From contig JARKQF010000235.1 of NCBI GenBank assembly GCA_029973975.1, positions 1 to 44,787 of the forward strand: 44,787 bases of DNA. The letters run 5' to 3'. This document shows, piece by piece, positions 5,672 through 44,787 of this stretch. The position numbers were made by a program, and so were the translations under genes. The notes beneath the pieces are model-generated. The model did no database searches. It saw only the letters and a list, made by a program, of their open reading frames with translations, and was not told where the DNA came from. Every line of letters begins with the position of its first letter. Positions within the stretch are counted from its first letter, which is position 1. The stretch is from Paludibacter sp. Lineage in GTDB: Bacteria > Bacteroidota > Bacteroidia > Bacteroidales > Paludibacteraceae.

Positions 5672-5685
5672 TAAAGACTTCAATA

Positions 5686-6381: not shown

Positions 6382-6393
6382 AATTAAAAGTTT

Positions 6394-6915: not shown

Positions 6916-6959
6916 TCTCAGAATAAAAACAAAAAATAAAATCTATAAAAATTAAGACA

Positions 6960-7340: not shown

Positions 7341-7370
7341 AAATAAAAATTGCCTGATAATCAGGATTGT

Positions 7371-7409: not shown

Positions 7410-7489
7410 CATGTCTATATTAATATCGAACTCATTTCCGTGGGTTCACCACAGTTAAGTTCACCGCATCAACAATAAACTCTTTGAAA

Positions 7490-11302: not shown

Positions 11303-11357
11303 GTGTAATTGTTTAAATTATGGTGTGTCATGCAAAATAAATACATTTCACATCATG

Positions 11358-11382
11358 CATTACACAATACACATTACACAAT
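11358..11382. repeat. Short tandem repeat in the rpoB-rpoC gap
   Basis: An 11-bp unit CATTACACAAT occurs at 11358-11368 and 11372-11382 inside the 110-nt gap between rpoB and rpoC. The surrounding sequence is low in complexity. No promoter consensus or strong terminator is seen in this gap. Confidence 0.5.
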
Positions 11383-11412
11383 AAACAGTTAAAAAGAAAA
11401 ACAAAAGTATAT

Positions 11413-15702
<4,290 letters not shown>

Positions 15703-26107: not shown

Positions 26108-26131
26108 ATTTTTGTGAAAATATCTGAAGTC

Positions 26132-27163: not shown

Positions 27164-28054
27164 TTATCTCCAGCCCTTTCTTTTCAGGTAATCCAGTAAC
27201 ATTTCCGGGCGATCGGTTTGAATGATGCGTGCTCCAAGTTGTTCGATGAGGTAACCGTATGATTTATCAGGGTCTTTAAGCGCCATATCGTCATCACGAC
27301 CACCTGCCAATGTGTCCCAAAGCGTGTTATACCAAATCAGACTTTTACCGGCCAGTTTTTGTTTCATTTGTTGTGGAGCCTGGCTATTGGATTTGGCAAA
27401 CAACAGCTCAAAAGCAACCGGATGCAGTGAGTTGACGAAATCATCCATTTTTACAGAAGCTGATTTTTGATCCAAATCGACTATGGGCATGTAAATTACC
27501 TTATCCAGATATTTCCCGAATTGTTTTTTTACCTCATCCGGTGATTTTTTCCCTTTCATGATGATTTGATGAGCAGTGCCTGTTTTTTCAAGCAAAAGAT
27601 AAACTTCATCGAAATAACGGTCGGCCTTATCCAGATTTATCATGATTTTATCTTTTGCATGCAAAAGCGCTTCTTCAAGCGTAGGCACTACATGTTTCGT
27701 TTTGATGGCACAGCCATTTTTAAGTTTAAGGGTTTTGATGGAATCCAGTGTCCAGTCTTCAACACGACCTTTGCCTGTTGTGGTACGATCCAGTGTTTTA
27801 TCGTGCATCAAAATTAAATGTCCGTCTTTGGTCCGCTGAATGTTAATTTCCACGATGTCAACACCCATTTTGACTGCACTTTCAATTGCTTCAATGGAAT
27901 TTTCAGGGAAGTTGCGCCAGTCACCCCGGTGTGCTACAACAAGCACTTCGTTGAGGTGGGGGTTGTTGAGCTTGTTAATAATGGAATCGACATGCGTTTG
28001 TGCGGTCAGGTATAAACCTGTAAATAAAAACAGTAGAATTAACTTGAATTGCAT
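27164..28054 (-). CDS. Glycerophosphodiester phosphodiesterase family protein, exported
   Basis: The 296-residue protein has a signal peptide (1-19, ending LTAQ) and the GDPD fold: H42 and R43 (VVAHRGDW), E51 in NFPENSIEA, E69 in DIVEINIQ, and H84 in LILMHDKTLDRTTTGKG. All family catalytic and metal residues appear present. GDPD enzymes cut glycerophosphodiesters to glycerol-3-phosphate and an alcohol; some cut teichoic acids or GPI-like diesters. It is the last gene of the long minus-strand run and lies 10 nt after the SGNH hydrolase gene. The TIM-barrel length is normal. Confidence 0.92.
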   Translation of the reverse strand: MQFKLILLFLFTGLYLTAQTHVDSIINKLNNPHLNEVLVVAHRGDWRNFPENSIEAIESAVKMGVDIVEINIQRTKDGHLILMHDKTLDRTTTGKGRVEDWTLDSIKTLKLKNGCAIKTKHVVPTLEEALLHAKDKIMINLDKADRYFDEVYLLLEKTGTAHQIIMKGKKSPDEVKKQFGKYLDKVIYMPIVDLDQKSASVKMDDFVNSLHPVAFELLFAKSNSQAPQQMKQKLAGKSLIWYNTLWDTLAGGRDDDMALKDPDKSYGYLIEQLGARIIQTDRPEMLLDYLKRKGWR

Positions 28055-28064
28055 ATTAAACAGT

Positions 28065-28826
28065 TTATTTTTTTACGTATTTCCGGATAGTTTTCAATAC
28101 AATCGGTTCCATGATTGCGTAACCTTTCATGTTAGGATGTACCCCATCAGCAGCAATTTCAGCCGGCAATCCTCCACGTTCATCTACCAGTGCCGAATAA
28201 TAATCGACAAAAGGAATCTTATTGGCATCAGCATATACTTTAATCATTTCATTCAGCAATTTGATATCGGCAGCCGGGGTCAGTTCTTTATTCCACCTGA
28301 ATTCATAAGCAGGTAATATGGTACACAATACCGGTTTGATTTTGTGAAACTGAGCCAGCTCACACATCGATTTGATGTTTTGCATGATATGTTTATGACT
28401 GATAATGCCGTTGTTACGGGCAATATCGTTGGTCCCGGCCATGATAACAACCATCTTGGGTTTCAGATCGATAACATCAGCCTGAAAACGGGTAAGCATG
28501 TGACTGGTTGTTTGTCCGCCGATTCCGCGACCGGTAAATCCATTTTCAATAAAAAATTCGGGATGTTGTTTATACCATCCATCAGTAATTGAATTACCCA
28601 GAAAAACCACCTTGGCAGGTTTCTGCATCGAATCATTCATGGCTTCATATCGATAAAAGCGCGCCCAATCGGTTGACCGCATTTTTGCTTTTTCTTTTTC
28701 AGCAAAATGTTTTTCAAATTGTTTGTATTGTTCCGAATCGAGTGTGATGGAAAGTGATTCTGAGTTTTGACCACTCAGGTAATTGATTATCAGTATACAA
28801 AAGATTGTATTGAAAATTTTTCTCAT
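28065..28826 (-). CDS. SGNH/GDSL-type esterase, exported
   Basis: The 253-residue protein has a signal peptide (1-20) and SGNH blocks: S79 in FLGNSITDGW, G104 in GIGGQTTSHM, N133 in MAGTND, and D227 and H230 in DGVHP. Together these form a complete serine esterase active site. Relatives remove acetyl or acyl groups from glycans or phospholipids. A good promoter (28867-28898) lies upstream. Its place between the EEP lipoprotein and the GDPD gene fits removal of ester groups before or after phosphodiester cleavage. Confidence 0.9.
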   Translation of the reverse strand: MRKIFNTIFCILIINYLSGQNSESLSITLDSEQYKQFEKHFAEKEKAKMRSTDWARFYRYEAMNDSMQKPAKVVFLGNSITDGWYKQHPEFFIENGFTGRGIGGQTTSHMLTRFQADVIDLKPKMVVIMAGTNDIARNNGIISHKHIMQNIKSMCELAQFHKIKPVLCTILPAYEFRWNKELTPAADIKLLNEMIKVYADANKIPFVDYYSALVDERGGLPAEIAADGVHPNMKGYAIMEPIVLKTIRKYVKK

Positions 28827-28866
28827 GTGTTTTAAGTATTTAATTTTATAGTTTGTTTCCTTATGA

Positions 28867-28898
28867 CAAAAGTAAATAAAATGTTTTTAATACTCAAA
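28867..28898 (-). promoter_or_regulatory. Internal promoter before the SGNH hydrolase and GDPD genes
   Basis: On the minus strand TTTG (28898-28895), a 20-nt spacer and TACTTTTG (28874-28867) fit the consensus. The upstream box overlaps the 3' end of the EEP lipoprotein gene. It would give a leader of about 34 nt and allow the last two genes to be expressed apart from the rest of the run. Confidence 0.55.
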
Positions 28899-29720
28899 AA
28901 CCGTCATAATCGGGTAATGATCTGAAATATAGGGAACTCCATAATCCTTTATGATCGTCTGATAGTGGATTGGCGTGGCAAAACGATAGAATATGTAATC
29001 AATGATTCTGCCTTCCTGTGTAACTTTAAATTCATTTGTGGTGCCTAATGAATCTGTTTTTGCAGCCATTGACTGGGATGATTCAAGATATTGATAGACA
29101 GGACTAAGTAATGAATCGTTAGGTAGGGTGTTAAAATCCCCCAAAACAAATGTCATCAGTGTATCTCCGGACAGTTCAGACGCTTTTTGAACGATCAACT
29201 TTGCTGACTCGATGCGTGCCTGAGCTCCGCGATGGTCAAAATGGGTGTTCAGAACGATAAATTCTTTGTTGTCGCTCTTATTTTTAAGATGTACCCAGGT
29301 CATTATACGATTGTACTTGGCGTCCCAACCTTTTGAAGAAACTTCAGGTGTTTCGCTTAACCAGTTTGTTCCTGAATTTAATAAGTCAAATCTGCCGGTA
29401 TGGTAAAATATTGCTGTGTATTCATTGTTCTTTATCAGACTATCGCGTCCTTCACCGACAAAAGTAAAATCTACCAGTGCCGAATCCAGAAAGTTAACCT
29501 GATGTATGATGCCTTCCTGAATACCGAAAACATCAGGCTTTTGATCGTTGATCATGTCCACACAAGCCTTGCGGCGGAATTTCCAGTTGTTTTCACCATC
29601 TTTAGGTTCGTCGTAACGAATATTAAACGACATGATGCGGAGCACTGCTTTGTTTTCTGTTTTTTTGACACAACCAAACAGAAACGGAATTGCTATGATT
29701 GCTATGAGTAATTTTCTCAT
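28887..29720 (-). CDS. Endonuclease/exonuclease/phosphatase family lipoprotein
   Basis: The 277-residue protein begins with a lipoprotein signal (LFGC, acylated C17). EEP motifs are complete: N33 (MSFNIRY), E69 (GIQEG), H160 and D162 (LNTHFDHRG), D195 and N197 (LGDFN), D241 (IIDYIF), and D267-H268 (SDHYP). The family includes DNases, sphingomyelinases and inositol polyphosphate phosphatases; this branch in Bacteroidetes is uncharacterised to my knowledge. Its ATG overlaps the TGA of the phosphomutase gene (ATGA, 29717-29720), so translation is probably coupled. It is likely anchored in the periplasm or on the surface. Confidence 0.9.
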   Translation of the reverse strand: MRKLLIAIIAIPFLFGCVKKTENKAVLRIMSFNIRYDEPKDGENNWKFRRKACVDMINDQKPDVFGIQEGIIHQVNFLDSALVDFTFVGEGRDSLIKNNEYTAIFYHTGRFDLLNSGTNWLSETPEVSSKGWDAKYNRIMTWVHLKNKSDNKEFIVLNTHFDHRGAQARIESAKLIVQKASELSGDTLMTFVLGDFNTLPNDSLLSPVYQYLESSQSMAAKTDSLGTTNEFKVTQEGRIIDYIFYRFATPIHYQTIIKDYGVPYISDHYPIMTVFEY

Positions 29721-31153
29721 GATAACGCAATTTTATTGTTCGAAATATTAATTAATAATGTTTGCCCGAGTTGGAGTAATTTTTCCACTTCATCATCACT
29801 TTGTCCTTCAGCATAATAACGGATTATGTCTTCGGTTTCGGAACTTCTGATAAGCAGCCATCGACAGTCCCCTTCAAAAATAAATTTCAGTCCGTTGATG
29901 ATACCGCGACTACTCAAGAACGATTCAGTCCTAGTGATTTTAAACCGACCGATTTGATTTATTTTACTTTCAAAAGCCATTGGAAGTAATTGATTCTTAT
30001 CCGGCTTGTCATAATGAGCATCAATTCTGTCATAATAAACCAATCCGATTGAGTCCTGTCTTTCCTGCAGGTAAGCCGAGAGTTTTTTTAATCCCGAGAC
30101 AGCCAGCATTTCCATCATTATGAGAGCAGAAAAAATCCCGTCCCGTTCCGGAATGTGCATGCCAAAACCAAAACCGCCACTTTCTTCTCCACCGAATGCA
30201 ATTTCTTCTTGCATCATGATGTCAGCAATATATTTAAAGCCAACCTGCACTTCATGAACACGAACTGTATCAGATGCGAAACAACTGCGAATTTTATCGG
30301 TTACAGAAGATGTTTTAACCAGTCCTCCGGGAACCATTTTCACTCTCTTGATATAATCAACCAGCAACAGAATCGTGTTTTGCGCAGAAAGCCATTGACC
30401 GTTATCCAGACAAACCCCGAGCCGATCGGCATCCCCGTCTGTAGCAACGCCAAGCGCATAATTGCCTTTTGTCAGTTTTTCTTTTAACGGCTCCAGATTT
30501 TGCTCTATGGGTTCAGCCAGCCTGCCGTGGAAAGTTTCGGAGGGTTCGCCGAAAATAGTAGAAGCCACACAGTTATGTTTGAGTAGCAATTGCTCCAGAA
30601 AATTAGTTCCCGCACCTCCCATGCTGTCGATCAAAACAGGAATTTCGGCAGTTCTAATTTTGCTGAAATCAACCAGTTGTTCGATTTGGCTGACATAAGC
30701 CGGAGTCATATCCATTTCAGTAATCAATGACGTTGATTTTTTTACCGGAGACTGATAAAGTAACTTTTCAATTTCCTTTGTTTCTTCGGAAGAAAACGGT
30801 CCGCCTTTCGATGACTTGAATTTGATACCATTATAGGCAGGAGGATTGTGCGAAGCGGTTATCATCACGCCGGCAAAACAGTCTTTGAGTTTGGTGGTAA
30901 AGGAAAGTACCGGAGTAGGGATAATCCGGTCAGACAATAGCACCCGGATGTTATTTCCCGAAAGGACTTCAGCGAAAATCGTGGCAAAAAGCCGTGAGTT
31001 TCTACGGGTATCATAAGCGATTGCGATGGGCTTATTCGCTTGTTGATTATTTGTAAAGTCAGCAAAAGCTTGGGCGACAACACTTACAGTTTCTTCGTTG
31101 ATTTGAGAGTCCAGATATGCCCGCCAACCATCTGTTCCGAAAAAAATATTCAT
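29717..31153 (-). CDS. Phosphohexomutase (phosphoglucomutase/phosphomannomutase family)
   Basis: The 478-residue protein has the alpha-D-phosphohexomutase domains: N-terminal FGTDGWRA (5-12), the active serine S101 in ITASHNP, the magnesium loop DGDADR at 239-244, and the sugar-binding GGEESGGFG. The family interconverts hexose-1- and hexose-6-phosphates (glucose, mannose or GlcNAc). It has no signal peptide and is cytoplasmic. It lies 12 nt after nanE and overlaps the EEP lipoprotein by 4 nt. Which sugar is used cannot be told, but the partner NanE would supply GlcNAc-6-phosphate. Confidence 0.92.
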   Translation of the reverse strand: MNIFFGTDGWRAYLDSQINEETVSVVAQAFADFTNNQQANKPIAIAYDTRRNSRLFATIFAEVLSGNNIRVLLSDRIIPTPVLSFTTKLKDCFAGVMITASHNPPAYNGIKFKSSKGGPFSSEETKEIEKLLYQSPVKKSTSLITEMDMTPAYVSQIEQLVDFSKIRTAEIPVLIDSMGGAGTNFLEQLLLKHNCVASTIFGEPSETFHGRLAEPIEQNLEPLKEKLTKGNYALGVATDGDADRLGVCLDNGQWLSAQNTILLLVDYIKRVKMVPGGLVKTSSVTDKIRSCFASDTVRVHEVQVGFKYIADIMMQEEIAFGGEESGGFGFGMHIPERDGIFSALIMMEMLAVSGLKKLSAYLQERQDSIGLVYYDRIDAHYDKPDKNQLLPMAFESKINQIGRFKITRTESFLSSRGIINGLKFIFEGDCRWLLIRSSETEDIIRYYAEGQSDDEVEKLLQLGQTLLINISNNKIALS

Positions 31154-31165
31154 GATAATTTAATT

Positions 31166-31864
31166 TTACTTATTGATGGCTTCAACAAACCATTTCGTGA
31201 TTAAATGAGGACGGGTGATAGCAGAACCAACTACCACAGCCCAGGCCCCGGCTTCAATTGCCAGTGCGGCATCTTCCGGAGTATTGTATCTTCCCTCGGC
31301 AAATACGGGATAACCCGGAAATAAATGCACACAATTTTTCAATAATTCAATGGAAGGACCATTTTTACTTTCGTGTATCGTTTCCGGCGTATAACCACAT
31401 AAAGTGGTCGAAACACAATCCGCACCAGCTTTCTTGCAGGCCTGAGCTTCTTCAATGGTTGAAATATCTGCCATGATAAGGGCGTCGGGAAACCTGCGTT
31501 TGATCTCTGCAATATAATCCGGACCGCTGAAATTATTTTCTCTGATGCGGAAAGTGCCATCGACAGCTATAATGTGTACACCCGTTTGAATCAATGCCTC
31601 CACGTCGTCGAAAGTCCCGGTGATGCACACGGTATTGTCCGGAAAATAGGCTTTTGTCAGTCCGATTACCGGGACATCGGTATGCTCGACAATACTTTTG
31701 GTTTTTTCTACCCCACAGGTACGGATTCCGGCAGCACCACCCTGCAATGCCGTAATGGCAAAATTAGTCACACCTTCAGGAGAATTAAAGGGAGAGTCAC
31801 CTTCAGCCTGACAGGATACAATCAGTTTTTTATATAAAGTTTTAAACTCATCAGCTACGTTCAT
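31166..31864 (-). CDS. nanE: N-acetylmannosamine-6-phosphate 2-epimerase
   Basis: The 232-residue TIM-barrel protein matches NanE: LIVSCQAEGDSPFNSPE at 14-30, AAGIRTCGV, PVIGLTKAYF (65-74), DISTIEEAQACKKAGAD, and a C-terminal GAWAVVVGSAITRP. It converts ManNAc-6-phosphate to GlcNAc-6-phosphate in sialic acid or ManNAc catabolism. No sialidase, neuraminate lyase or sialic acid transporter lies nearby, so the ManNAc-6-phosphate should come from some other source in this locus. It precedes the phosphohexomutase gene by 12 nt. Confidence 0.9.
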   Translation of the reverse strand: MNVADEFKTLYKKLIVSCQAEGDSPFNSPEGVTNFAITALQGGAAGIRTCGVEKTKSIVEHTDVPVIGLTKAYFPDNTVCITGTFDDVEALIQTGVHIIAVDGTFRIRENNFSGPDYIAEIKRRFPDALIMADISTIEEAQACKKAGADCVSTTLCGYTPETIHESKNGPSIELLKNCVHLFPGYPVFAEGRYNTPEDAALAIEAGAWAVVVGSAITRPHLITKWFVEAINK

Positions 31865-31905
31865 CTTTTCAATAATAATTTTTATTTGATACTGTTTTAG
31901 ATAAC

Positions 31906-32757
31906 TTATTTAATGGTTAAATCCACGTATACCGGATAGTGATCGGAAGGGAACAGATTGTTTTCATACGCTTCATCAATTGCCCGGTAGGTGTATATTT
32001 TGATTTCAGGCGTAGTGAAAATGTAATCAATCCGTACCGGGTGTACGCCGCCAAAGTTATGAGCAGTTCCAACCGGGCCATACACTCTTTCCTGTGGCGC
32101 CGTTTTTCTTGCGTCTGCAAAGTTCTCCGACAAAATCCGATAGGCTTCTGTATCCGGTTTACTGTTCAGGTCGCCCCCAATTAAGAAAGGAGTATTGCCT
32201 GCAATCTTTTTTGCTTTTTTGCTGATGAGTATTGCACTGTTGGTTTTCGCCATCAGGCCTTTGTGGTCGAAATGGGTGTTAAAGAAGTAGAATTCTTTCT
32301 TGGTCTTTTTGTCTTTAAATTTTACCCAGGTGCAGTAACGGGCATATTTCCCGTCCCAGCCTTTTACCTCTGTCTCGTTGTTTTCGTTCAGCCAGAACAT
32401 ATCCCATTCAATGGTGTCGAAACGTTTTCCGTCATAAATAATCGGATTAAACAAACCTTCTTTTCCAACGAACTTATATGAAGTTCCGGTCACAATATCT
32501 TCCAGTTGAAATTGAACAGCTTCCTGAAGTCCCACTATTTCCATGTTGTTCTTCAGAATAACCTTAATTAACGAATCTTTTCTGAACTTCCAGAGGTTTA
32601 CCCCATCATTCGGATTTTCTCCGCGGATGTTATATACCGCCAGGCGGATATTGTCTTTGGGTAATTTATTATCAGTAGGTTTACATACAAACGACATCAA
32701 ACCCAGAGTGCTGATACATACGAATAACAGCGTCGATTTTTTTATGCGTGTTTTCAT
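31906..32757 (-). CDS. Endonuclease/exonuclease/phosphatase family protein, exported
   Basis: The 283-residue protein has an N-terminal hydrophobic signal (9-23); a lipobox is not convincing. EEP residues are N43 (VYNIRG), E79 (GLQEA), FNTHFDH, GGDLN, RIDYIF and PSDHYP. It resembles the T9SS-tailed EEP protein at 38855-40000 (shared GPVGTAxN segment and YPSDH or FPSDH end), so both are paralogues. It follows the organophosphate transporter gene by about 20 nt and lies upstream of nanE. It probably works in the periplasm on phosphoester substrates. Confidence 0.88.
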   Translation of the reverse strand: MKTRIKKSTLLFVCISTLGLMSFVCKPTDNKLPKDNIRLAVYNIRGENPNDGVNLWKFRKDSLIKVILKNNMEIVGLQEAVQFQLEDIVTGTSYKFVGKEGLFNPIIYDGKRFDTIEWDMFWLNENNETEVKGWDGKYARYCTWVKFKDKKTKKEFYFFNTHFDHKGLMAKTNSAILISKKAKKIAGNTPFLIGGDLNSKPDTEAYRILSENFADARKTAPQERVYGPVGTAHNFGGVHPVRIDYIFTTPEIKIYTYRAIDEAYENNLFPSDHYPVYVDLTIK

Positions 32758-32778
32758 CTATATTTTAATTTTTAAATA

Positions 32779-34068
32779 CTAAACTTCTGTGTAGTTTTCC
32801 TGTGATTCTTTTTCGGCTTTCCGGTGTTTTCCTGCAATGATAATCAGGAAAGTAAGTGATAATGCCCCGGCTATCAGCCAGAAATAGCGGATATTATCAA
32901 AATCATACATATTGACACCATCAACAATTGTCTTTTTACCTTCGATGAGGAAACCACTGAGAATATCCTGTACCCCAGCGGCAATGTAGCTGGCAATTCC
33001 GATTACTCCTGCAGCGGCGCCTACGGCTTCTTTCGGAGCGATGTCGACAGCCATCAAACCACCAACGAAACAAATTAGTACTCCGATGGAAATTCCGAAC
33101 AATACCATGCTGATGATATCGATGTAGTAATATCCGGCAGGAACCAACAGAAATAGCAATAATGCAAATAAGTTCAGCGCAGACATGAGTATTGCGGGAA
33201 TAGTCCGGCTTCCTTTGAAGAATTTATCAGAGAATAGTCCGGAGAAGATAGTCCCGAATATCCCGAAAACAGAACTGATTGAAATAAGCGAACTGGCTTC
33301 CAGTACCGTATATCCCTTTTCTATTTCGAAATAGAATATCCCCCAGCTGTTTACAGCATAACGAGCAATATACATAAAAGCGCTACTGAGTGCCAACATC
33401 CAGATCATCGGGTTTTTGAGTACTTCCAGTTGTTTCAGACCGATGTTTTGCTGTTTAACCACGAGTTGTTCGTGAAATGCGTCTTTGGAAGCTGATGGTC
33501 TCGGGATGAGGAAAAAGAAAATCAGCAAAACACCCAGCAGGCCTAGAAAACCGGCGCTCCAGAATCCCCATTGCCACCCCAGAGTTCCTACAACAAAAGC
33601 AGTGAAAGTGAATGTGATGGCTTCTCCAATGTTATGGCTGGCGCTCCAGAAACCGTAAACAGTACCTATCCTGTGGGGTGGATACCATCTTTTCAGGGCG
33701 ATGATACTGCTGACAGCTCCGGTGGATTGGAACCATCCGTTGAGTGTCCACAGTATCAGGAAAAACCAAAATGCGGTTTGAAATCCAAGCAAAATATTAG
33801 CAATAGAACAAATTAAGAGTGATATTGCCATGAAATAACGGATATTCACCCGGTCGGCGAGAAATCCATTCAGCAATTTACCAATTGCGTAGGTGAAGAA
33901 CAAGGCAGAGCCTACCATCCCAAGTTGAGATTCTGTCAGAATACTCTCATCAACAATTGATTTTTTTAAAACATTTAAACTTAAACGTGTTACATAGAAT
34001 AGTCCGTAACCAATCGTTACAGCCCAAAACACACCTGTCCTTCTCAGACTTTTTACATCTTTCTCCAT
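32779..34068 (-). CDS. Organophosphate:phosphate antiporter-type MFS transporter (GlpT/UhpT-like)
   Basis: The 429-residue membrane protein has about 12 hydrophobic helices. Its start (FWAVTIGYGLFYVTRLSLNV), the KLLNGFLADRVNIRYF segment and the WTLNGWFQSTG motif (about residues 114-124) are typical of the OPA family, which imports glycerol-3-phosphate or hexose-phosphates in exchange for phosphate. It sits between a secreted phosphoesterase and EEP enzyme genes, which fits uptake of a phosphorylated product released outside. The exact substrate is not evident. Confidence 0.88.
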   Translation of the reverse strand: MEKDVKSLRRTGVFWAVTIGYGLFYVTRLSLNVLKKSIVDESILTESQLGMVGSALFFTYAIGKLLNGFLADRVNIRYFMAISLLICSIANILLGFQTAFWFFLILWTLNGWFQSTGAVSSIIALKRWYPPHRIGTVYGFWSASHNIGEAITFTFTAFVVGTLGWQWGFWSAGFLGLLGVLLIFFFLIPRPSASKDAFHEQLVVKQQNIGLKQLEVLKNPMIWMLALSSAFMYIARYAVNSWGIFYFEIEKGYTVLEASSLISISSVFGIFGTIFSGLFSDKFFKGSRTIPAILMSALNLFALLLFLLVPAGYYYIDIISMVLFGISIGVLICFVGGLMAVDIAPKEAVGAAAGVIGIASYIAAGVQDILSGFLIEGKKTIVDGVNMYDFDNIRYFWLIAGALSLTFLIIIAGKHRKAEKESQENYTEV

Positions 34069-34079
34069 CTGTTTTCTCT

Positions 34080-36554: not shown

Positions 36555-36590
36555 ACATCTTTTTTTACTAATACCAGATTTCAGAAAAGA

Positions 36591-36633
36591 AAAAACTACA
36601 GGAGGAAAACCCCGGAGGATATCCTCCTGTAGA
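36591..36633 (-). terminator. Terminator-like hairpin inside the 13-gene run
   Basis: On the minus strand an 11-bp stem (36633-36623 with 36607-36597), loop of 15, is followed by TTTTTTCTTTTC. It lies just after the beta-propeller gene and before the phosphoesterase gene. No promoter consensus was seen in the short space after it, so partial read-through is more likely than a full stop. Confidence 0.65.
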
Positions 36634-36639
36634 AGTTAT

Positions 36640-38817
36640 TTATTCAATGATAAATTTAGCTGTTTTCACAGCTCCGGTCATTGATTTAAGTTGTGCGTGA
36701 TATAACCCGGCGGGTAAGTTCTTTACATTAATACTGATTGGGTTGTTGTATCTTCCGATCAACTGACCAACCTGGTTGTAGAGATTAACCACATAATTTG
36801 CTTCTGAAGTTTTGATATTCAGTATGTCAGAAGTAACAGCAGGATAGAATGTAGCATTTGCTGTTAACGGATTTCTCACCGAAGTGTCATCTTTTACATT
36901 CAGAGACATGTAACGCACGTTACGGCTTCTTCCACGAATTGATTCACCTTTTGGATCCTGGGCGTAGTATGTAATAGTTCCCGGATTGGCTGTACTGTCG
37001 GTTGCAATAACACCAAAATACAGGTTTTCAGCCTTTGAGATCGTTCCAATCAATGCGTTGTTGTAGAAGTTGAGTTCTTCCGGAATTGCCAGTTGATAGA
37101 ATTTTTGTGTTCCTGCAGGAGATGCAATAGCTAATTGCTGGTTGTATTCCACTCCAACAGTAAACTCGGGCAATTGATTCGGAGTTATTTCCGGTAATTT
37201 ATATTTACCTAGTAAAGTAGAAGTAAATCCTACGTATGCAGAAGTGTATTTGTTGTCTACCGGAGTTTCAGGACAATATGCCGGCAGAAGGGTATACATG
37301 CTTTTGCGTTCGGGGAAATTGGTGTAAAAGTCAGTAAAACTGTCAAACATATTGTCGGGAGAAGTGTAAATCACGTTAGCCCTTGCTTTGATGTCTAAAA
37401 GCATGTATACGTGGTTTTTATCCGGACTCAATGCAATATCTTTAATTGCTTCTGTTTGCGTTCCACCAGGACGGGCAATGGATGCCAGTTTACCCTCGCG
37501 TGTCAAAACAAGATAGAGTGCGTCAACCCCACCGTTGGTGTTGTGTTGCATCCATACTCCGTCAACGGTTCTGATGCCGGAATTCGAGTTTCCACCAAAT
37601 ACAGAATGCGAGTATAAATCACCAAAACGGGCAGACATACCACCACCAACATACCAAACGCCTTCATTCGTTACACGAATGCTGTTACCGAAAGCTCCGC
37701 CACCACCGACAGTAGAACCTTGTCCGAATGAATACCACCAGCGGTAATCACCGTTGTCTTTGTTAAATGTGAAAATCCCAAGGTGATCCTGATTGGCATC
37801 ACCGGCTTTTCCAAAGCCGTTTTGCAGGGTGTCGGTGCTCTGGTTGATTGTAATGTCTTCAGAACGGTAATTGCTCAATACAGCCACATCGCCGATAGGA
37901 CTGATTTCAATTCCTGCCGCTTTGTCGCTGCGGGATCCTTTGATGTGTTTTACCCAGCTTTCATCACCTGTTGGTGAATATTTAACTAAAAACAGGTCAT
38001 TGATAGCTGTGTTGGTTGTGAGCGTAGCACCTGCCAGGGTTGTTGTTCCCGAGAAAGCGCCACTGACAAAAACATTACCTTCTGCATCTGCTTTAGAGAA
38101 TGCATTCACAAAACTGGCATCGGCCGTTTGCTGATATTTAGCCCAAACTAAAGCACCTTCTTTGGAATACTTGGCCACATACATCTGGTTCCAGTATTGA
38201 GTGCTTCCCACAAAGTTGTTCAGGTTGGCGGGGTCAAAAGACATTTCGCTGCCAAAAGTACCTGAAATGATGATGTTGTCGGAGCCGTCTACAGACACAT
38301 TGTCCACGGTAGCTTCTTCAGTTGGCAATTGCCACATGTTGAGCACGTTTCCGTTTGCGTCATAACGAATTACAAAGATTGAAAGGGCAACATAACCGGA
38401 AGGATCTGCCATGGTCATTGAATTGTTTTCATCGGCCTGGAGCGTTCCTTTGAAAGTCCCTGTAACCACCAGGTTGCCTTCATTGTCGATAACCATGTCG
38501 CTGACAGCAGCTTCACCTGAGGCAACCAATTTGCGACTCCACACAGCTACTTTTTCTGATGTCATTTTGGTAATGATAGCATCGCCCAGGTCGACACCCG
38601 ACTGACTTGGAACTGTTTGGTCGAGAATCTGAACACTGCTGCCGCCAAAACGAGCAGCTATATAGATAGCGCCGGCATTGTCGACAACCATACGCATTGG
38701 TTGAATCTGGCTTCCTGCCACATTGCTACCCCAGTAGGTGTACCATTCCATGACCTGTGCATTGGTATGCAGGGTCAACGCGAAGAATGCGATTAAAAGA
38801 AAGAAACTTTTTCTCAT
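36640..38817 (-). CDS. Secreted beta-propeller-type protein with T9SS sorting domain
   Basis: The 725-residue protein has a signal peptide (1-20, NAQ), then repeated blade-like segments of the form DNxGNxxVTGTFxG (residues about 25-470), an Ig-like domain (about 545-640) and a T9SS tail (about 650-725, YNQVGQLIGRY...PAGLYHAQL). No catalytic motif is recognised. Such SBBP-repeat proteins often bind ligands or scaffold on the surface. It precedes the phosphoesterase gene in the run, so a surface-binding role for the same substrate is possible but unproven. Confidence 0.82.
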   Translation of the reverse strand: MRKSFFLLIAFFALTLHTNAQVMEWYTYWGSNVAGSQIQPMRMVVDNAGAIYIAARFGGSSVQILDQTVPSQSGVDLGDAIITKMTSEKVAVWSRKLVASGEAAVSDMVIDNEGNLVVTGTFKGTLQADENNSMTMADPSGYVALSIFVIRYDANGNVLNMWQLPTEEATVDNVSVDGSDNIIISGTFGSEMSFDPANLNNFVGSTQYWNQMYVAKYSKEGALVWAKYQQTADASFVNAFSKADAEGNVFVSGAFSGTTTLAGATLTTNTAINDLFLVKYSPTGDESWVKHIKGSRSDKAAGIEISPIGDVAVLSNYRSEDITINQSTDTLQNGFGKAGDANQDHLGIFTFNKDNGDYRWWYSFGQGSTVGGGGAFGNSIRVTNEGVWYVGGGMSARFGDLYSHSVFGGNSNSGIRTVDGVWMQHNTNGGVDALYLVLTREGKLASIARPGGTQTEAIKDIALSPDKNHVYMLLDIKARANVIYTSPDNMFDSFTDFYTNFPERKSMYTLLPAYCPETPVDNKYTSAYVGFTSTLLGKYKLPEITPNQLPEFTVGVEYNQQLAIASPAGTQKFYQLAIPEELNFYNNALIGTISKAENLYFGVIATDSTANPGTITYYAQDPKGESIRGRSRNVRYMSLNVKDDTSVRNPLTANATFYPAVTSDILNIKTSEANYVVNLYNQVGQLIGRYNNPISINVKNLPAGLYHAQLKSMTGAVKTAKFIIE

Positions 38818-38854
38818 AACGTTCTAATTTTAAAGTTAGTAATATAGATTTATT

Positions 38855-40000
38855 TTAATTTATAATAATTTTAGTGCTGACTGTTGCTTGTCCGCTGGTG
38901 GTTTTAATGATGTAAATACCTTTATCCAGACCTTTAAAAGCAATGTCATTTGTTTTTCCCTTTGAGGTTCTTTTCAGAACGCCGATACTGTTGTATATTT
39001 CGCAAGCAAAAGGAGTTTCTCCTGAAATCCGTATTTCGTTATTGACATAGGTCATTTTCAAACCTGCATCTGTTAAGTTGTTGTTTAATCCTGATGCTAC
39101 TTCTTTTATTTTTGCTGTAATCAGTACCGGGAAATGATCTGAGGGATAAGCATCGTCAACATATTTTGTGTCGATGGTAGCATACGACAGCACTTCTGAC
39201 TTCTGATTCAGATAAATAAAATCAATTCTTTTCGATTCAGTGATGTTTGATGGCGCCAGATTCCAGTTGTTGGCTGTCCCTACAGGGCCGGTAGTCTGTC
39301 TTCTCGGTGCAATTTTTCTGCTGTCGCTTAAGCCTCCATCAAGTAGCGTGGCATAAGCAGTTGTCCCGGTTTCAGTTGAAAAATTGAAATCTCCTGTGAG
39401 GAATACCGGTAAATTAGAATCAGCCATAATCTCATTTATTTGTTTAATAACAAGTTTAGCAGATTCGTTTCGTGCTGTTGCACCGGCATGATCAAAATGG
39501 GTGTTGAAAAAATAGAATTCTTTTTCTGTTACGATATCATACATTTTTGCCCACATACAAATTCTTGCTAATTGGGCATCCCAACCGATACTATACGTAT
39601 AAGGAGTTTCAGAAAGAAAAAACCATCCGTTTTCAAGCATTTGGAAACGGCTTGTCCTGTAAATAATCGCAGCTCTTTCACCCGACGTGCCTTCGTTGTT
39701 ATTTCTACCTTTCCAGAAAATACTGTATCCGGGCAGTTGAGCCATCAGGTCGCTTTGTTGTGTTGCGGAACCAATCTCCTGCACTCCGAAAATGTCGAAA
39801 CGATTCGATTTGACGATATTTCCTACAAATGTCTTTCTCACCGACCAGTTTCTGTTACCCGTGTCACCCGTGTTAGCATAGCGAATATTGTAGGTTGCGA
39901 TGCGTAAGGTGTCGGAACCTTGTGCTAAAAGATTACTACCTGCACTCGATAGCAACAAGAGCAGTATGAATGAAAGTATGTGATGACATTTATGATTCAT
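38855..40000 (-). CDS. T9SS-exported endonuclease/exonuclease/phosphatase protein
   Basis: The 381-residue protein has a signal peptide (about 1-27, ending LLAQ), the EEP catalytic domain (about 30-300) with N38 (ATYNIRY), FGVQEIG, FFNTHFDHAG, LTGDFN, RIDFIY and YPSDHFP, and a T9SS sorting tail (about 310-381, EIYNSIGVLKRTSKG...KGIYIIKT). It is the surface-directed version of three EEP proteins in this run. It lies 37 nt before the beta-propeller gene. The substrate may be a phosphodiester glycan, lipid headgroup or nucleic acid. Confidence 0.9.
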   Translation of the reverse strand: MNHKCHHILSFILLLLLSSAGSNLLAQGSDTLRIATYNIRYANTGDTGNRNWSVRKTFVGNIVKSNRFDIFGVQEIGSATQQSDLMAQLPGYSIFWKGRNNNEGTSGERAAIIYRTSRFQMLENGWFFLSETPYTYSIGWDAQLARICMWAKMYDIVTEKEFYFFNTHFDHAGATARNESAKLVIKQINEIMADSNLPVFLTGDFNFSTETGTTAYATLLDGGLSDSRKIAPRRQTTGPVGTANNWNLAPSNITESKRIDFIYLNQKSEVLSYATIDTKYVDDAYPSDHFPVLITAKIKEVASGLNNNLTDAGLKMTYVNNEIRISGETPFACEIYNSIGVLKRTSKGKTNDIAFKGLDKGIYIIKTTSGQATVSTKIIIN

Positions 40001-40023
40001 TTTCTTTGTTTTTGATTCAGGCT

Positions 40024-40047
40024 CTTTTCAGCATAATTGCTGAAAAG
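40024..40047 (-). other. Intergenic stem-loop between two T9SS protein genes
   Basis: A 10-bp stem (40024-40033 with 40038-40047), loop TAAT, is flanked by an outer GATTC/GAATC pairing (40014-40018, 40053-40057). No T-run follows on the minus strand, so it looks more like an mRNA stabiliser or processing site than a terminator. Confidence 0.5.
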
Positions 40048-40088
40048 TTCCCGAATCTTTAATACAACCTTTCTACCTGTTAACTAAA

Positions 40089-41723
40089 CTATCTCTTTAA
40101 TACCTTTTGAATGGTATCCACCTTGTTTTCTGATTGTATTCTGATGATGTACATCCCTGCAGCGAAATTGCCGAAAGGAATTATATTTGCATTTTTATAT
40201 TCAGCAATCAGACTTCCCATTTGATTGTAGACTTTTACTGAAAAGTCTTTTGTAACTGATTGTATGTTTAACACGTCATTAACCTGTGTCGGATAAACCT
40301 TAGTCTGATTGTGATGGTTATTATCAACAGAGGTAGCCGGCGATGATTCATAGCCTGTCCATTCGATATTGTCGATAACTATACGTAGTTTATTACTTGT
40401 TCCTTCATAAGCTGATTTGTTCTCAATTTTTACCACAAATTTGCCGTCGTACTTCAATCCGTCTACAGAAAATGTTTTAGGGGTTGAAAATGCAGCACCT
40501 TCACCGGCATCTGTAATTGCTCCAACGACATCACCGTTTACTGAAACCTCTACATTGTAATTATATCCAATTTCAGTACCTCCCTGATTCCATTGGAAAC
40601 TTAAACCCGAGATTCCTCCTTCAATTGAATCACTTTTAACATAACCATAATCATAATCAGTTTCTGTAGTTAATCTTGCACGGAGATACATGGCATTGTT
40701 TCCAAAAAGCTGTGTGTTCCCACCCCCCAACCAGTAAGTCCAGTTGATATTATTATCCATTAAATCGGTAACGGGAGTCTGACTGCAGGAGGTCGCTGCC
40801 GGGTTTACGATACAAACGTTGGAAATATTGGTGAATGTTTCTATCTTCCAGTTGTCTGGTTTAACCGATAACTCGTAACTTGCAAATGCTTCATTAAAAT
40901 TTTCGGATTCAGCTACTGTAGCCGTAATTGTTGTAGTACCCAGGCCAACGATGTCAACTTCTCCTGTATTTGGGTTTATCGTCGCACAAGATGTATTCGA
41001 GCTGGTATAAGTAACCACACCGTCAGAATTGTTGGTTAAACTATTTGTAAAGTTGTCCGCAGAAAGTAGTTTGGTGATTTGCTTTACCACATAGGTAAAA
41101 GACGGATCTTGCTTCTCTCCGGGCGCAACGTAGCTTGTCCATGATAAATCATCGAGAACAAAACGGAATTTATTAGAAGTACCTGAGTATTGAGAACGAT
41201 TTTCAATTTTTATTACAAATTTTCCTGCAATATCAAGTCCTCCCACATTGTATTTATAGGCATTACCTTCTGATATCTCTGTCGCTGTTTTTTGGGTCCC
41301 GGCAGCCTGATTGATGGCTCCGACTTCTACGTCATTGATAAGAATGCGAATATCCCAATTGCCACTTTCAGCACCATTACTGTTCCAGTCAAACCACAGA
41401 CTGTCGATTCCCCCTGTAATTGAGTCGCTAACGAGGTAACCATAACCAATTGCATTCTCGCTTGGCTGTTTCATAGCCCTGATTACAGCAGCAGTACCAC
41501 TGAAGTTTCCAAGACCTGTGCGAACAGTTCCTAATAATGTAGTCCATTTCAAACCTGTAGCATCGGATGGCGCTAAAGACTGTGTCGGTGTGGTTACGTA
41601 GGTGCTTGAGCCACTAAGACTAACATTGTGAGCACCCTCAAATGTTTCGACTTTAATTTCAGCAAAAGCCGAAAAAACAATGAGTAAAGACACAAATAAT
41701 AATGTAATTTTTTTCATATTCAT
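40089..41723 (-). CDS. Secreted T9SS protein with duplicated beta-sandwich domain
   Basis: The 544-residue protein has a signal peptide (1-21, ending AFAE; the start may also be M3). Two similar units, about residues 24-198 and 293-458, share DSIxGGI, xNGAExG/GTEIG, GKFVIKIENxSxYxGTSNK and DxxxWTxY, so a domain was duplicated. A Big-2-like Ig domain (about 205-290) separates them. A T9SS tail (473-544) follows. No enzyme motif was recognised. It follows susD, and in such loci proteins at this place often bind the substrate. Confidence 0.82.
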   Translation of the reverse strand: MNMKKITLLFVSLLIVFSAFAEIKVETFEGAHNVSLSGSSTYVTTPTQSLAPSDATGLKWTTLLGTVRTGLGNFSGTAAVIRAMKQPSENAIGYGYLVSDSITGGIDSLWFDWNSNGAESGNWDIRILINDVEVGAINQAAGTQKTATEISEGNAYKYNVGGLDIAGKFVIKIENRSQYSGTSNKFRFVLDDLSWTSYVAPGEKQDPSFTYVVKQITKLLSADNFTNSLTNNSDGVVTYTSSNTSCATINPNTGEVDIVGLGTTTITATVAESENFNEAFASYELSVKPDNWKIETFTNISNVCIVNPAATSCSQTPVTDLMDNNINWTYWLGGGNTQLFGNNAMYLRARLTTETDYDYGYVKSDSIEGGISGLSFQWNQGGTEIGYNYNVEVSVNGDVVGAITDAGEGAAFSTPKTFSVDGLKYDGKFVVKIENKSAYEGTSNKLRIVIDNIEWTGYESSPATSVDNNHHNQTKVYPTQVNDVLNIQSVTKDFSVKVYNQMGSLIAEYKNANIIPFGNFAAGMYIIRIQSENKVDTIQKVLKR

Positions 41724-41757
41724 CTAAATTTTTAATTGCTTATTTATTCCCCTTAGA

Positions 41758-41785
41758 TCCTGTCTTCCTAAGACAGAAGACAGGA
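41758..41785 (-). other. Stem-loop downstream of susD
   Basis: A perfect 10-bp stem (41758-41767 with 41776-41785) with an 8-nt loop lies 16 nt after the susD stop codon. It has no T-run on the minus strand. It may protect the susCD mRNA 3' end and help keep SusCD above the distal genes. Confidence 0.55.
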
Positions 41786-41801
41786 CATCGGGTGTTGTTT
41801 A

Positions 41802-43289
41802 TTAATAATCATCATTCTGATACAGGTTCTTATTCAGGAACACTTCGTCATAAGGCAGCGGTAATAAAATTTCATACGCTTTAAAACCGGTGTATTTGTT
41901 CCCAACATTAGGCTCCACTACACTTTGCATGAATGTTACAAAGTCGTTGTCATTCGGATACATTCTTCTCAGATCGAACCAACGATGATTTTCGAACGAT
42001 AATTCAACTCTTCTTTCGTGGAAGATGGCATCTCTGAGTGTAGGATATTTGGTGTGATAGGCGGCGTTTGAGTTGTCATATTTAGGCAAACTGGCACGCA
42101 CACGTACTTTGTCCAGATAATTTTTCGCTTCTACTGTCATGCCTTTTCTTTCGTAAGCCTCAGCCAGCATCAGAAATACATCGGCAAAACGGATTTCAAT
42201 CCAGTTATTACCATGGTAACCGGTTGGATTTGATAAGTCAACGTATTTTTTTGTGTAATAATGGTTGTTTGGCGCTTTCAGGATAGCTGTAGAAGTACGG
42301 CGGTCCCCGGTTTCATATTCCATAAACAGGTTTTCCTGACCGGCATTGAATCCGCGTCCGTCGATTTGCGAAGTCAAACCTTTCAATCCCAATGGCTGGA
42401 AGTACTGTGCAAATGGCGATGATTCGCTGGAGGTGCTCAGGTACATGCACTGGAAAATGATTTCCTCATTTCCTTCGTTAGATGTTCCGAAAACACGGGG
42501 ATAAGTTGCTCCGGAAGGGAAGTCGTTATATCCTTTCAGCGTAATGGCTTTCTGCAGATAGGTAATAGCATTGGTGTAGTATTCATCATTACCCTGTGTG
42601 GCAGCCATGTGAAGGTAAACCCTTCCAAGCAGAGCTGCACCTGCCGTACTGGTTGCCCGGCCGAAGTTTGCGTTGTTAGCGTCATAGAATGCGGGTACCA
42701 CAGTTGAATTCGCCAATGTCTCCAGGTCGCTGATGATGAGAGTATAGGCATCGGATAATGGCTGACGGGTCATGGCGTTTGCCTCAGAGATAGTTTCAAT
42801 TACCCTGTCGACAACGGGTACCGGTCCGTATAAGCGTACCAGGTAAAAGTGAGACAATGCCCGTAAAAATTTAGCCTCAGCTATCATTCTTTCACGGCTC
42901 TCATCGCTCATTTTTACCTTGTCGATGTATTTAAGTACCAGGTTGGTTTTGTAAATGGTATTGTACAGTCCGTTCCAGATATTGGCCACGATGGTGTTGT
43001 TCGAGGTTACCTGATGGGAGACAAAGGTGTAATACAATCCACTTGAAGTTCCTGAATCAAAAGTAGTAGCGTTATCCGATTTCATTTCGGTAACAAAGAA
43101 CATCCAGTTATAGAAAGACCGTGTAGCCTGATAAGCTGCCAACAAGGCATCATCCATGTCCTGTTCGCTTTGATAAAACTTATGCACATCGAATGCATTC
43201 GGATCTTTCAAGTCCAGAAAATCAGAATCACAACTGTTTAATAAACCAGGGATCAGGATGATTAATAGATATTTAAAATATTTTTTCAT
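41802..43289 (-). CDS. SusD/RagB family outer-membrane lipoprotein
   Basis: The 495-residue protein begins with a lipoprotein signal (LNSC, acylated C20) and has the SusD pattern: DPNAFDVHKFYQSEQDMDDALLAAY near the start, TPR-like helices with RALSHFYLVRLYGPVPVV, and the C-terminal ADVFLMLAEAYER...YLDKVR and HERRVELSFENHRWFDLRR. SusD lids bind the ligand and close over the SusC barrel. It lies 17 nt after the susC gene. It is a canonical pair; the ligand cannot be read from sequence alone. Confidence 0.95.
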   Translation of the reverse strand: MKKYFKYLLIILIPGLLNSCDSDFLDLKDPNAFDVHKFYQSEQDMDDALLAAYQATRSFYNWMFFVTEMKSDNATTFDSGTSSGLYYTFVSHQVTSNNTIVANIWNGLYNTIYKTNLVLKYIDKVKMSDESRERMIAEAKFLRALSHFYLVRLYGPVPVVDRVIETISEANAMTRQPLSDAYTLIISDLETLANSTVVPAFYDANNANFGRATSTAGAALLGRVYLHMAATQGNDEYYTNAITYLQKAITLKGYNDFPSGATYPRVFGTSNEGNEEIIFQCMYLSTSSESSPFAQYFQPLGLKGLTSQIDGRGFNAGQENLFMEYETGDRRTSTAILKAPNNHYYTKKYVDLSNPTGYHGNNWIEIRFADVFLMLAEAYERKGMTVEAKNYLDKVRVRASLPKYDNSNAAYHTKYPTLRDAIFHERRVELSFENHRWFDLRRMYPNDNDFVTFMQSVVEPNVGNKYTGFKAYEILLPLPYDEVFLNKNLYQNDDY

Positions 43290-43306
43290 GATGTAACTTT
43301 TAGTTG

Positions 43307-44787
43307 TTAGAAGGATAATTTTACACCTAAACTGTAAGTACGTGCCAGCGGATAAGTCCCAAAATCGATACCCGGAGCCAAGTTTCCAGAGTTGTAATCA
43401 ACATCGGGGTTATAACCCAGGTAGTCAGTAAGCATCAAAGCATTGTCGACTGATCCGTACACATATATATTGCTGATGGTAAGTTTGTTGAGCAATTGAT
43501 TTTTAGACAGATTGTATCCCAGTGTGATGTTTGTACAGCGCAGGAATGAAGCGTCTTCAACAAAATAGGTTGAGAACTTGGTGTTCAGGTTTTTTGCCGA
43601 ACGATTGGCACGATATACCATTCCGTTTCCGGGGTTTGATTCGTCGCGATAACGGTCAACACCCCATTTCATGGTATTTACGCCGCCTTCCTGATTTGCT
43701 ATATAGTAACGTGAGAAGTTGATGACTTCAGCTCCGTACTGTCCGTCGAAAGTTGTTGAAAGAGTTAGTCCTTTCCAACTAAAACTGGTGTTGAATCCGA
43801 ATGTGAAATCAGGATAATTGCTCCCGATAATTTCTCTGTCGTCTTCAGTGATTTTGCCATTACCATCTACATCTTTCCATTTTACATCACCCATGTACAC
43901 GTTGTCATAATCAGCGACAGGAGGTCCTGCCAGCACATAATCCGGTGTGTTCTGGTTGGCTTTGTCGATCAGGATATTGGCGTAGTCTTCGGCATTGATG
44001 ATACCCTGGCTAACCATACCGTAATAGGAACCAATAGGTAACCCGTTGCGAGTCACGTGCGTGATCTGGCCACGTTGTGCTTTGGTGATGATTTCATCGC
44101 TGAGTCCCATCACCTTGTTGCGGTTAACAGAGATGTTAAATCCGGCATTCCATTTTACATTCTGTGTTGCAATGATGCCCCCGTCAATTTGTAAGTCAAA
44201 TCCTTCGTTGTATACCTTACCTTCGGCAAGATTAGTCCAGGAACCGGTGTAACCTGTTACAGCTGAAACCGTTGTGTTGTACAACAAATCGTTGGTAACA
44301 CTATGATAATAGTTTGCAATCAGGTTCAAACGCCCGTTCAGGAAAGTGAAGTCGGCCCCGATGTTTGTCTGATTTGTTTTTTCCCAGCCGATTTTCTGAT
44401 CCACGAAGGCGGCGGGATAATAGGTAAACACAGTTCCTTGTCCCAGGTTGTAAGTTCCCTGAGCCATATTGGGAATGTGGCGGTAATTGCTGATGTTATA
44501 GTTACCGCTGATCCCCCAACTGGCTCTTAGTCGCATGGTCATGATATCGGTTAACGGAGCAAAGAATTCTTCATTGGAAACATTCCAGCCGGCAGAAACA
44601 GAAGGGAAATATCCCCATCGTTTTGCAGGTCCGAAACGAGAACTGCCATCACTACGCAGGGTTGCGTTGATTACGTATCGGCTGTCGTAGTTATAGATCA
44701 TACGACCGAAGAATGACATAATTGACCATGCCGAACGGGAAGTTACGGCAGAGGTGCCGTTTTCATCCGTAGCGGTTGGACCGGCAG
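43307..44787 (-). CDS. SusC/RagA family TonB-linked outer-membrane transporter, C-terminal part (cut by window edge)
   Basis: The frame is open to the window edge, leaving about 492 residues of the C-terminal beta-barrel. Typical segments include DSRYVINATLRSDGSSRFGP, WGYFPSVSAGWNVS, DVKWKDVDGNGKITEDDREIIGSNYPDFTFGFN and the terminal strand ending LARTYSLGVKLSF. The plug domain and start lie outside the window. It imports the captured substrate across the outer membrane with TonB energy. It is the first visible gene of the 13-gene minus-strand run. Confidence 0.95.
   Translation of the reverse strand, partial: AGPTATDENGTSAVTSRSAWSIMSFFGRMIYNYDSRYVINATLRSDGSSRFGPAKRWGYFPSVSAGWNVSNEEFFAPLTDIMTMRLRASWGISGNYNISNYRHIPNMAQGTYNLGQGTVFTYYPAAFVDQKIGWEKTNQTNIGADFTFLNGRLNLIANYYHSVTNDLLYNTTVSAVTGYTGSWTNLAEGKVYNEGFDLQIDGGIIATQNVKWNAGFNISVNRNKVMGLSDEIITKAQRGQITHVTRNGLPIGSYYGMVSQGIINAEDYANILIDKANQNTPDYVLAGPPVADYDNVYMGDVKWKDVDGNGKITEDDREIIGSNYPDFTFGFNTSFSWKGLTLSTTFDGQYGAEVINFSRYYIANQEGGVNTMKWGVDRYRDESNPGNGMVYRANRSAKNLNTKFSTYFVEDASFLRCTNITLGYNLSKNQLLNKLTISNIYVYGSVDNALMLTDYLGYNPDVDYNSGNLAPGIDFGTYPLARTYSLGVKLSF

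Follow-up and report, generated by a model that had tools for sequence, protein, structure and literature searches.

A phosphoesterase-rich SusCD locus of Paludibacter, possibly serving the use of a phosphodiester-bonded polymer of N-acetylhexosamine

The window considered here is a stretch of 44,787 nucleotides from Paludibacter sp. (GenBank assembly GCA_029973975.1, contig JARKQF010000235.1; contig C166 of genome G000), in which a minus-strand run of thirteen open reading frames (ORFs) at 27164-44787 joins a SusC-SusD pair to phosphoesterases, an SGNH esterase, an organophosphate transporter, the epimerase NanE and a phosphohexomutase. What is chiefly new is a conserved cassette inside this run, transporter (OPA), EEP enzyme (EEP2), NanE and mutase (PGM), which is also found in Bacteroides salyersiae, Bacteroides nordii, Alistipes and Ereboglobus. 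An earlier note, made from the letters of the window, had listed these thirteen genes, seen no glycoside hydrolase among them and proposed a phosphodiester substrate. The gene list and the minus-strand run are borne out, the families being assigned with Pfam and TIGRFAM models and the gaps, from the low-coordinate end, measuring 10, 60, -4, 12, 41, 21, 11, 85, 37, 88, 78 and 17 bp (a range of -4 to 88 bp). The genome comprises 3.56 Mb in 358 contigs, and is 85.7% complete and 5.7% contaminated.

Read downwards from the contig end, the run begins with SusC (43307-44787, TIGR04056), of which only the C-terminal 492 amino acids are present, the gene being open at the contig end, and with SusD (41802-43289, PF07980 and PF14322). 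These are followed by a surface protein with a Big_2 domain and a type IX secretion system (T9SS) tail (40089-41723), which has a 37% identical counterpart in the same-genus genome G122; by EEP1, an EEP enzyme with a T9SS tail (38855-40000, PF03372), whose best PDB-sequence matches are 3mpr and the mannosyl-6-phosphatase 4c1r; by SBBP, a beta-propeller-like surface protein, also with a T9SS tail (36640-38817), recognised by a domain match and a low-confidence model; and by MPE, a calcineurin-like phosphoesterase of 824 amino acids with the MetallophosN and MetallophosC domains of Pfam (34080-36554), whose tail resembles a T9SS tail by eye. The cassette comes next, with the OPA-type organophosphate transporter of the major facilitator superfamily (32779-34068), the adjoining EEP2 (31906-32757, PF03372, with PDB-sequence matches and a model), NanE, the N-acetylmannosamine-6-phosphate 2-epimerase (31166-31864, PF04131), and PGM, a phosphohexomutase of the PGM/PMM type linked to NanE (29717-31153, assigned with Pfam and a comparison with TIGR03990), which is the second mutase of the genome besides GlmM. 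The run closes with EEP3 (28887-29720, PF03372), an SGNH/GDSL esterase (28065-28826, PF13472, Lipase_GDSL_2, matching PDB 3p94) and a GDPD protein with a DUF4996 domain (27164-28054, from Pfam and alignment).

EEP1 to EEP3, MPE, PGM, NanE and the SGNH esterase all carry the motifs that an active enzyme should have. The locus spans 0.5% of the genome and holds three of the eleven EEP matches found there, more than chance would give (binomial p, about 2e-5). The SusC-SusD pair stands in one run with enzymes, as in a polysaccharide utilization locus (PUL), and Pfam recognised no glycoside hydrolase or lyase among the thirteen window genes and those of the upstream contig described below, the surface proteins being partly without assigned domains. 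What the earlier note had said of glycoside hydrolases thus also stands after the upstream contig is added; because no glycoside hydrolase or polysaccharide lyase family was found, the locus is called PUL-type and not a classical PUL.

The transporter reaches the cut-off of no curated member model (best TIGR00881, 241 of 408 bits; glpT, 146 of 633), so that no single substrate can be assigned to it. It aligns with GlpT (1pw4, E 2.7e-44), and four basic residues, Arg, Lys, His and Arg, which we take to be the phosphate-binding residues of GlpT, are kept in 80, 81, 80 and 81 of 81 OPA proteins, respectively. NanE scores 257.9 bits against a cut-off of 189 for NF002231, matches NanE proteins of the PDB and has the Lys and Glu positions, presumably catalytic, in the alignment. 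PGM was rejected as a GlmM, since it scores 273 bits on TIGR03990 (cut-off 439) and a separate GlmM, on contig C167, scores 530; its homologues of B. salyersiae, Barnesiella and locus L060 give 262-279 bits on the same model. NagA and NagB are both over cut-off in the genome and encoded away from the locus. No NanA was found over cut-off in the genome (85.7% complete), four weaker matches giving 112-146 bits; sialic acid was rejected as the source of N-acetylmannosamine (ManNAc) 6-phosphate for want of such a NanA and because the locus encodes no kinase.

The gene neighbourhoods were compared in genome sets of the family, order and phylum that are samples of larger groups. A true NanE occurs in 1 of 200 family genomes, namely the window's own (the other family matches are partial, at most 37 bits), in 5 of 393 order genomes and in 21 of 395 phylum genomes, the window genome being included in these counts; three of the four other NanE loci of the order read OPA-NanE-PGM. 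Besides that of the window, the order and phylum scans gave 25 NanE loci, of which 13 have a PGM of at least 51% identity in the stretch read: three are OPA loci, and the remaining ten all encode a hydantoinase-like protein and, in seven cases, a GH94 protein. GH94 enzymes are phosphorylases releasing sugar-1-phosphate, and their presence near NanE and PGM would fit a PGM handing N-acetylhexosamine (HexNAc) 6-phosphate to NanE. The cluster of other Bacteroidota seen at L060-L070, with varying subsets of permease, hydantoinase-like protein, NanE, FAD oxidoreductase, PGM, HAD-like protein, GH38 and GH94, looks like a separate catabolic route.

For the transporter, genomes of named species were scanned with an OPA alignment and the best 80 of 395 relatives were kept. 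Gene presence at these loci, as well as at the distant SusD loci mentioned below, was counted by tblastn, because the ORF picker hides genes in G+C-rich loci, and L056, L057 and L058, which duplicate L179, L176 and L172, were left out of counts and tree. NanE lies at 9 of the 80 loci, and PGM accompanies it in 9/9, against 0/71 of the others. An EEP is near 7 of these nine and near 3 of the 71 (Fisher p 1.3e-6, for related loci that are not independent), whereas GDPD is near none of the nine and near 65 of the 71; the window, with both GDPD and NanE, is unlike any of the 80. The order OPA-EEP2-(EEP)-NanE-PGM is found in five of the nine, L164 (B. nordii), L165, L166 (B. salyersiae), L170 (Alistipes) and L178 (Ereboglobus), and their EEPs group with EEP2 of the window (12 rows, support 94/90, below the program's star). 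In the tree of 81 OPA proteins (quick search, midpoint root, long-branch warnings for L178, L197, L232 and L240), an 11-member clade, 10 of them beside NanE, is separated from 70 proteins, 65 of them beside GDPD, with an SH-aLRT of 100. The OPA of G122 is nested in the NanE clade, which would most simply be explained by loss of NanE.

The surroundings of the cassette vary. The B. salyersiae locus reads FecR-SusC-SusD-SBBP-T9SS protein-OPA-EEP-EEP-NanE-PGM-AXE1, and 540 bp farther along, the opposite strand carries a GH88 gene; the B. nordii locus is like it, with SusC and PGM appearing as broken or shortened ORFs. In Barnesiella An55 and a relative, OPA-NanE-PGM is divergent from T9SS protein-SusC-SusD-GxDLY/SGNH-EEP-ROK, where SusC and SusD are 29% and 25% identical to those of the window, the EEP belongs to another branch and the SGNH protein also differs. 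A metallophosphoesterase follows PGM in L165. SusCD was not seen in the stretch read at Ereboglobus L178, L165, L167 and L170 (the last a 6.2-kb contig). The esterase changes with the SusCD version, being SGNH in the window, SASA plus SGNH in G122 and genome G306, a GxDLY SGNH protein in Barnesiella and AXE1 in B. salyersiae and B. nordii. The earlier note had called for a search of other Bacteroidales for the same gene set; the OPA-EEP2-NanE-PGM part is indeed present in several genomes, whereas the full set with this SusCD is not kept. No description of the cassette was found in the open-licence literature searched.

Relatives of the SusD protein were sought in 180 family and 295 order genomes, again samples of larger groups, and four had at least 59% identity: G122 (94%, same genus), G306 (90%, another family), G076 (62%) and G058 (59%). 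The locus of G122 reads SusC-SusD-Big2-EEP1-SBBP-MPE-OPA-EEP2-EEP3-SASA-SGNH, that of G306 SusC-SusD-SBBP-MPE-EEP2-EEP3-SASA-SGNH, that of G058 SusC-SusD-SBBP-MPE-EEP2 and that of G076 SusD-SBBP-MPE, followed by the contig end. SBBP and MPE are therefore kept in all four, and EEP2 in the three with enough contig. Lack of co-conservation between the phosphoesterases and this SusCD pair had been named beforehand as a refutation; since MPE and EEP2 are kept beside the close SusD relatives, the result favours the earlier reading in this respect, with the exception of GDPD (0/4), and NanE and PGM are likewise absent (0/4). None of 13 loci with SusD below 40% identity keeps the set; GDPD stands beside SusCD in three of them (L151, L152 and L157), and L157 is the only one of the three also with OPA. 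The presence of the locus in G306, of another family at 90% SusD identity, suggests a recent transfer. On the same contig of G306 (C12; L145 and L146), a phosphotransferase system EIIC/EIIB gene, GH31 and GH2 lie close to the locus.

The start of the truncated SusC has a candidate in the same genome. With the G122 SusC as query, the end of contig C23 is 90% identical to residues 1-645 and contig C166 covers residues 663-928 at 94% identity; the query gene itself (L143:8045-11502) is read as two ORFs of 932 and 202 amino acids, a frameshift or an assembly error. On C23, the SusC start (L262:8884-10857), which carries an STN domain, is preceded by FecR (L262:7699-8724) and an extracytoplasmic function (ECF) sigma factor (L262:7000-7602), both recognised with Pfam, and beyond the sigma factor the opposite strand carries what, by eye, are translation genes. 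The G122 locus carries the same sigma/FecR pair. Since C23 ends in the remaining part of SusC, preceded by FecR and the sigma factor, the full locus probably comprises 15 genes with a PUL-type regulator, the join of C23 and C166 being inferred from the match rather than assembled, and it is probably controlled by ECF sigma/FecR, i.e. by its substrate.

T9SS tails on EEP1, SBBP and the Big_2 protein, the similar tail on MPE and the finding of SprA in the genome point to the cell surface; EEP3 has a lipobox-like start, EEP2, the SGNH esterase and GDPD have signal-like starts (by eye), OPA lies in the membrane, and NanE and PGM look cytoplasmic. On these compartment signals the steps can therefore be ordered from surface to cytoplasm. 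The SBBP model (mean pLDDT 55.9, low confidence overall) is propeller-like at residues 38-320; the fold closest to it is that of the propeller enzyme CylK, from which only the term beta-propeller is taken. Among PDB sequences, nothing matched MPE at E 0.001.

EEP1, EEP2 and EEP3 each match the same four PDB proteins, 3g6s, 3mpr, 4c1r and 3l1w, the match of EEP1 to the mannosyl-6-phosphatase Bt3783 (4c1r) having an E value of 1.4e-44. The EEP2 model (mean pLDDT 86.4) ranks the same four above nucleases such as TDP2, and a nuclease role of the EEPs was rejected on this ranking. By catalytic motifs and closest fold the EEPs are classed as sugar-phosphate-type, with a putative assignment of the bond cleaved. 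A further EEP lies on contig C133 of the genome (L256) between beta-helix and SASA-like proteins, and this contig also encodes a SusC relative.

We propose, at a probability of about one half, that this is a PUL-type locus for a polymer bonded by phosphodiesters and consisting largely of N-acetylhexosamine, most likely ManNAc. At the surface, the Big_2 protein, SBBP, EEP1 and MPE would act together with SusCD to bind the polymer, cut it and pass fragments to the periplasm, where the SGNH esterase would remove O-acetyl groups and EEP2 and EEP3 would cut the remaining phosphodiesters, part of the sugar keeping its phosphate. OPA would carry the HexNAc-phosphate inward, PGM would convert HexNAc-1-phosphate to HexNAc-6-phosphate, NanE would turn ManNAc-6-phosphate into N-acetylglucosamine (GlcNAc) 6-phosphate, and NagA and NagB, encoded elsewhere, would lead from there to fructose-6-phosphate, the whole being under substrate control through ECF sigma/FecR. 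We know of no described pathway with a ManNAc-1-phosphate mutase feeding NanE. The genes and their families, the conservation of the cassette, the split of the OPA clades, NagA/NagB and the sigma/FecR pair are observations, and the enzyme activities, the compound transported, the sugar and the polymer are inferred from them: an O-acetylated HexNAc-phosphate polymer is suggested because there are several phosphoesterases and no glycosidase, an esterase that changes, organophosphate import, PGM, NanE and NagA/NagB.

The simplest known polymer that would use all the proposed steps is O-acetylated poly(ManNAc-1-phosphate). Its chemical precedent is the capsule of meningococcal serogroup A, [6)-ManNAc-(1-phosphate] with O-acetyl at C3/C4, hydrolysis of which leaves a phosphomonoester at C6 (PMC7501274); its ManNAc-1-phosphate and O-acetyl groups would match the phosphoesterase, esterase, PGM and NanE steps. 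A ManNAc-based glycan has also been proposed in E. coli, its structure not being determined in that source (PMC8669472). Nothing links the meningococcus or that E. coli to the locus, and both serve as chemical precedent only. The earlier idea of a phosphodiester substrate thus holds as far as SusCD with phosphoesterases and esterases is concerned and is weaker in its GDPD part, the GDPD being variable and probably impaired; its list of candidates was too wide, because NanE with a dedicated mutase and a separate OPA clade favour N-acetylhexosamine phosphate over phospholipid headgroups, glycosylphosphatidylinositol glycans or nucleic acid.

Several findings weigh against this proposal. The main weak point is the choice of the EEPs between monoesters and diesters: diester cleavage is proposed, while their nearest characterised relative, 4c1r, was deposited as a phosphomonoesterase. 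In GDPD, Asn71 (codon AAC, in EIN) stands in place of the Asp of the E-x-D metal motif that is present in 89/89 other GDPD matches; the codon may come from an assembly error, and the enzyme is probably impaired. The missing Asp and the phosphomonoesterase relative of the EEPs both weaken a simple diester reading. The four close relatives of this SusCD lack NanE, PGM and GDPD (G076 being silent past MPE), and just one of them, G122, retains OPA, without NanE. The cassette OPAs form one clade, so that their loci are not independent events; L167 and L179 (the latter a 4.1-kb contig) have OPA-NanE-PGM without a nearby EEP; L197, from Pedobacter, has EEP-EEP-OPA-SGNH without NanE, PGM or GDPD, and L215 an EEP together with GDPD, both with an OPA on the GDPD side of the tree. 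Finally, three surface proteins have regions without an assigned domain that could hide an enzyme.

Among the alternatives, a phosphate utilisation system (Pus), which would scavenge phosphorus from mixed organophosphates under starvation with the carbon genes as accessories, is rather unlikely, although it has points in its favour: Flavobacterium SusCD loci with phosphodiesterases are induced by low inorganic phosphate (PMC8115612), the part of the SusCD locus that is kept consists of phosphoesterases and not of carbon genes, and the closest EEP to have been characterised acts as a phosphatase. It would, however, leave NanE, the separate mutase and the separate OPA clade without a role in phosphate stripping, and ECF sigma/FecR beside SusC suggests control by substrate. 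The phosphatase kinship of EEP1, shared by the EEP2 model, could also mean that EEPs and MPE take phosphate monoesters off glycans whose ordinary backbones would be cut by other loci, mannose-6-phosphate N-glycans and yeast phosphomannan being examples; this is improbable, given that the locus has no mannosidase, that NanE acts, by family, on ManNAc-6-phosphate and not mannose-6-phosphate, and that OPA would stand idle.

GDPD bears on a slightly less probable substrate, a glycerol-phosphate polymer such as teichoic acid, where NanE would serve the ManNAc of the linkage unit. The window does hold a GDPD, and OPA relatives beside GDPD are common (65/80) and would carry glycerol-3-phosphate, but the window OPA belongs to the clade without GDPD and the window GDPD lacks its motif Asp. 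A glycerophosphate substrate is not favoured, because GDPD is missing from the four close SusCD relatives. Each teichoic acid chain has a single ManNAc, without phosphate at C6, and so small a gain would scarcely justify NanE and PGM. Least credible, and barely worth entertaining, is a locus scavenging nucleic acid or nucleotides that includes two adjoining genes, although a PF04231 endonuclease and an adenosine deaminase do end next to the run and EndA genes of the same family (pf04231) respond to low phosphate in Flavobacterium (PMC8115612): both genes are on the other strand and, by eye, do not adjoin the locus in G122, sugar-phosphate EEPs rank closest to EEP2 with nucleases lower, and NanE and PGM would have no role.

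Around the run, the endonuclease I (PF04231, 24938-26107) and adenosine deaminase (26114-27154) genes, on the opposite strand, come to within 9 bp of the GDPD gene and were rejected as parts of the locus for the reasons just given. Farther away, a sensor histidine kinase (20513-22054) has PnpS/PhoR-type models as best matches, all below cut-off, and at 2424-15702 five tRNA genes are followed by ORFs that resemble an EF-Tu/ribosomal protein/rpoB-rpoC run by size and order only.

The proposed N-acetylhexosamine polymer locus shares features with several known systems. The Flavobacterium PusCD loci are described in PMC8115612 as phosphate utilisation systems in which SusCD is joined to phosphoesterases without carbohydrate-active enzymes (CAZymes), a combination also found here; the present locus differs in its OPA, NanE and mutase carbon route, its ECF sigma/FecR pair and its other phosphoesterase families, the carbon route and the sigma/FecR pair being what it adds to the shared plan. 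Classical PULs with ECF sigma/FecR have the same run of sigma factor, FecR, STN-domain SusC, SusD, surface proteins and enzymes, but here phosphoesterases take part and no glycoside hydrolase or lyase was recognised. A SusCD-GDPD-OPA arrangement is common in Bacteroidota (GDPD near 65 of the 80 OPA loci, 53 of these 65 also with SusC or SusD), and a literature search for it found only the Pus paper; it shows a related OPA in a SusCD setting, with GDPD instead of EEP-NanE-PGM and the OPA in the other clade. Bt3783 (4c1r) and 3g6s belong to the same EEP branch by sequence and fold, at about 30% identity, whereas diester cleavage is proposed for the EEPs of the locus. Sialic acid catabolism of the E. 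coli type proceeds through NanA, NanK and NanE; the NanE step is shared, but there is no NanA over cut-off and no kinase in the locus, and the phosphate would arrive with the imported sugar.

The usual reading of a utilization locus starts from its glycoside hydrolases. In a broader form, which we put forward tentatively and consider doubtful, Bacteroidales of the gut and elsewhere, together with the verrucomicrobial Ereboglobus, would have a dedicated, glycosidase-free route for eating capsule-like poly(N-acetylhexosamine-1-phosphate), such as O-acetylated poly(ManNAc-1-phosphate), in which the sugar-phosphate bond is saved by import and a ManNAc-1-phosphate mutase feeds NanE. The mixed loci L197 and L215 and the three distant loci with GDPD make this form slightly less probable. 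Since B. salyersiae DSM 18765 and B. nordii, both cultured species of the human gut, carry the cassette, the proposal is open to direct testing. If it is true, the EEPs and esterases of the locus would be candidate depolymerases for the analysis of phosphodiester capsule polymers, and phosphate-linked capsules and similar glycans would be a class of nutrients overlooked by standard annotation.

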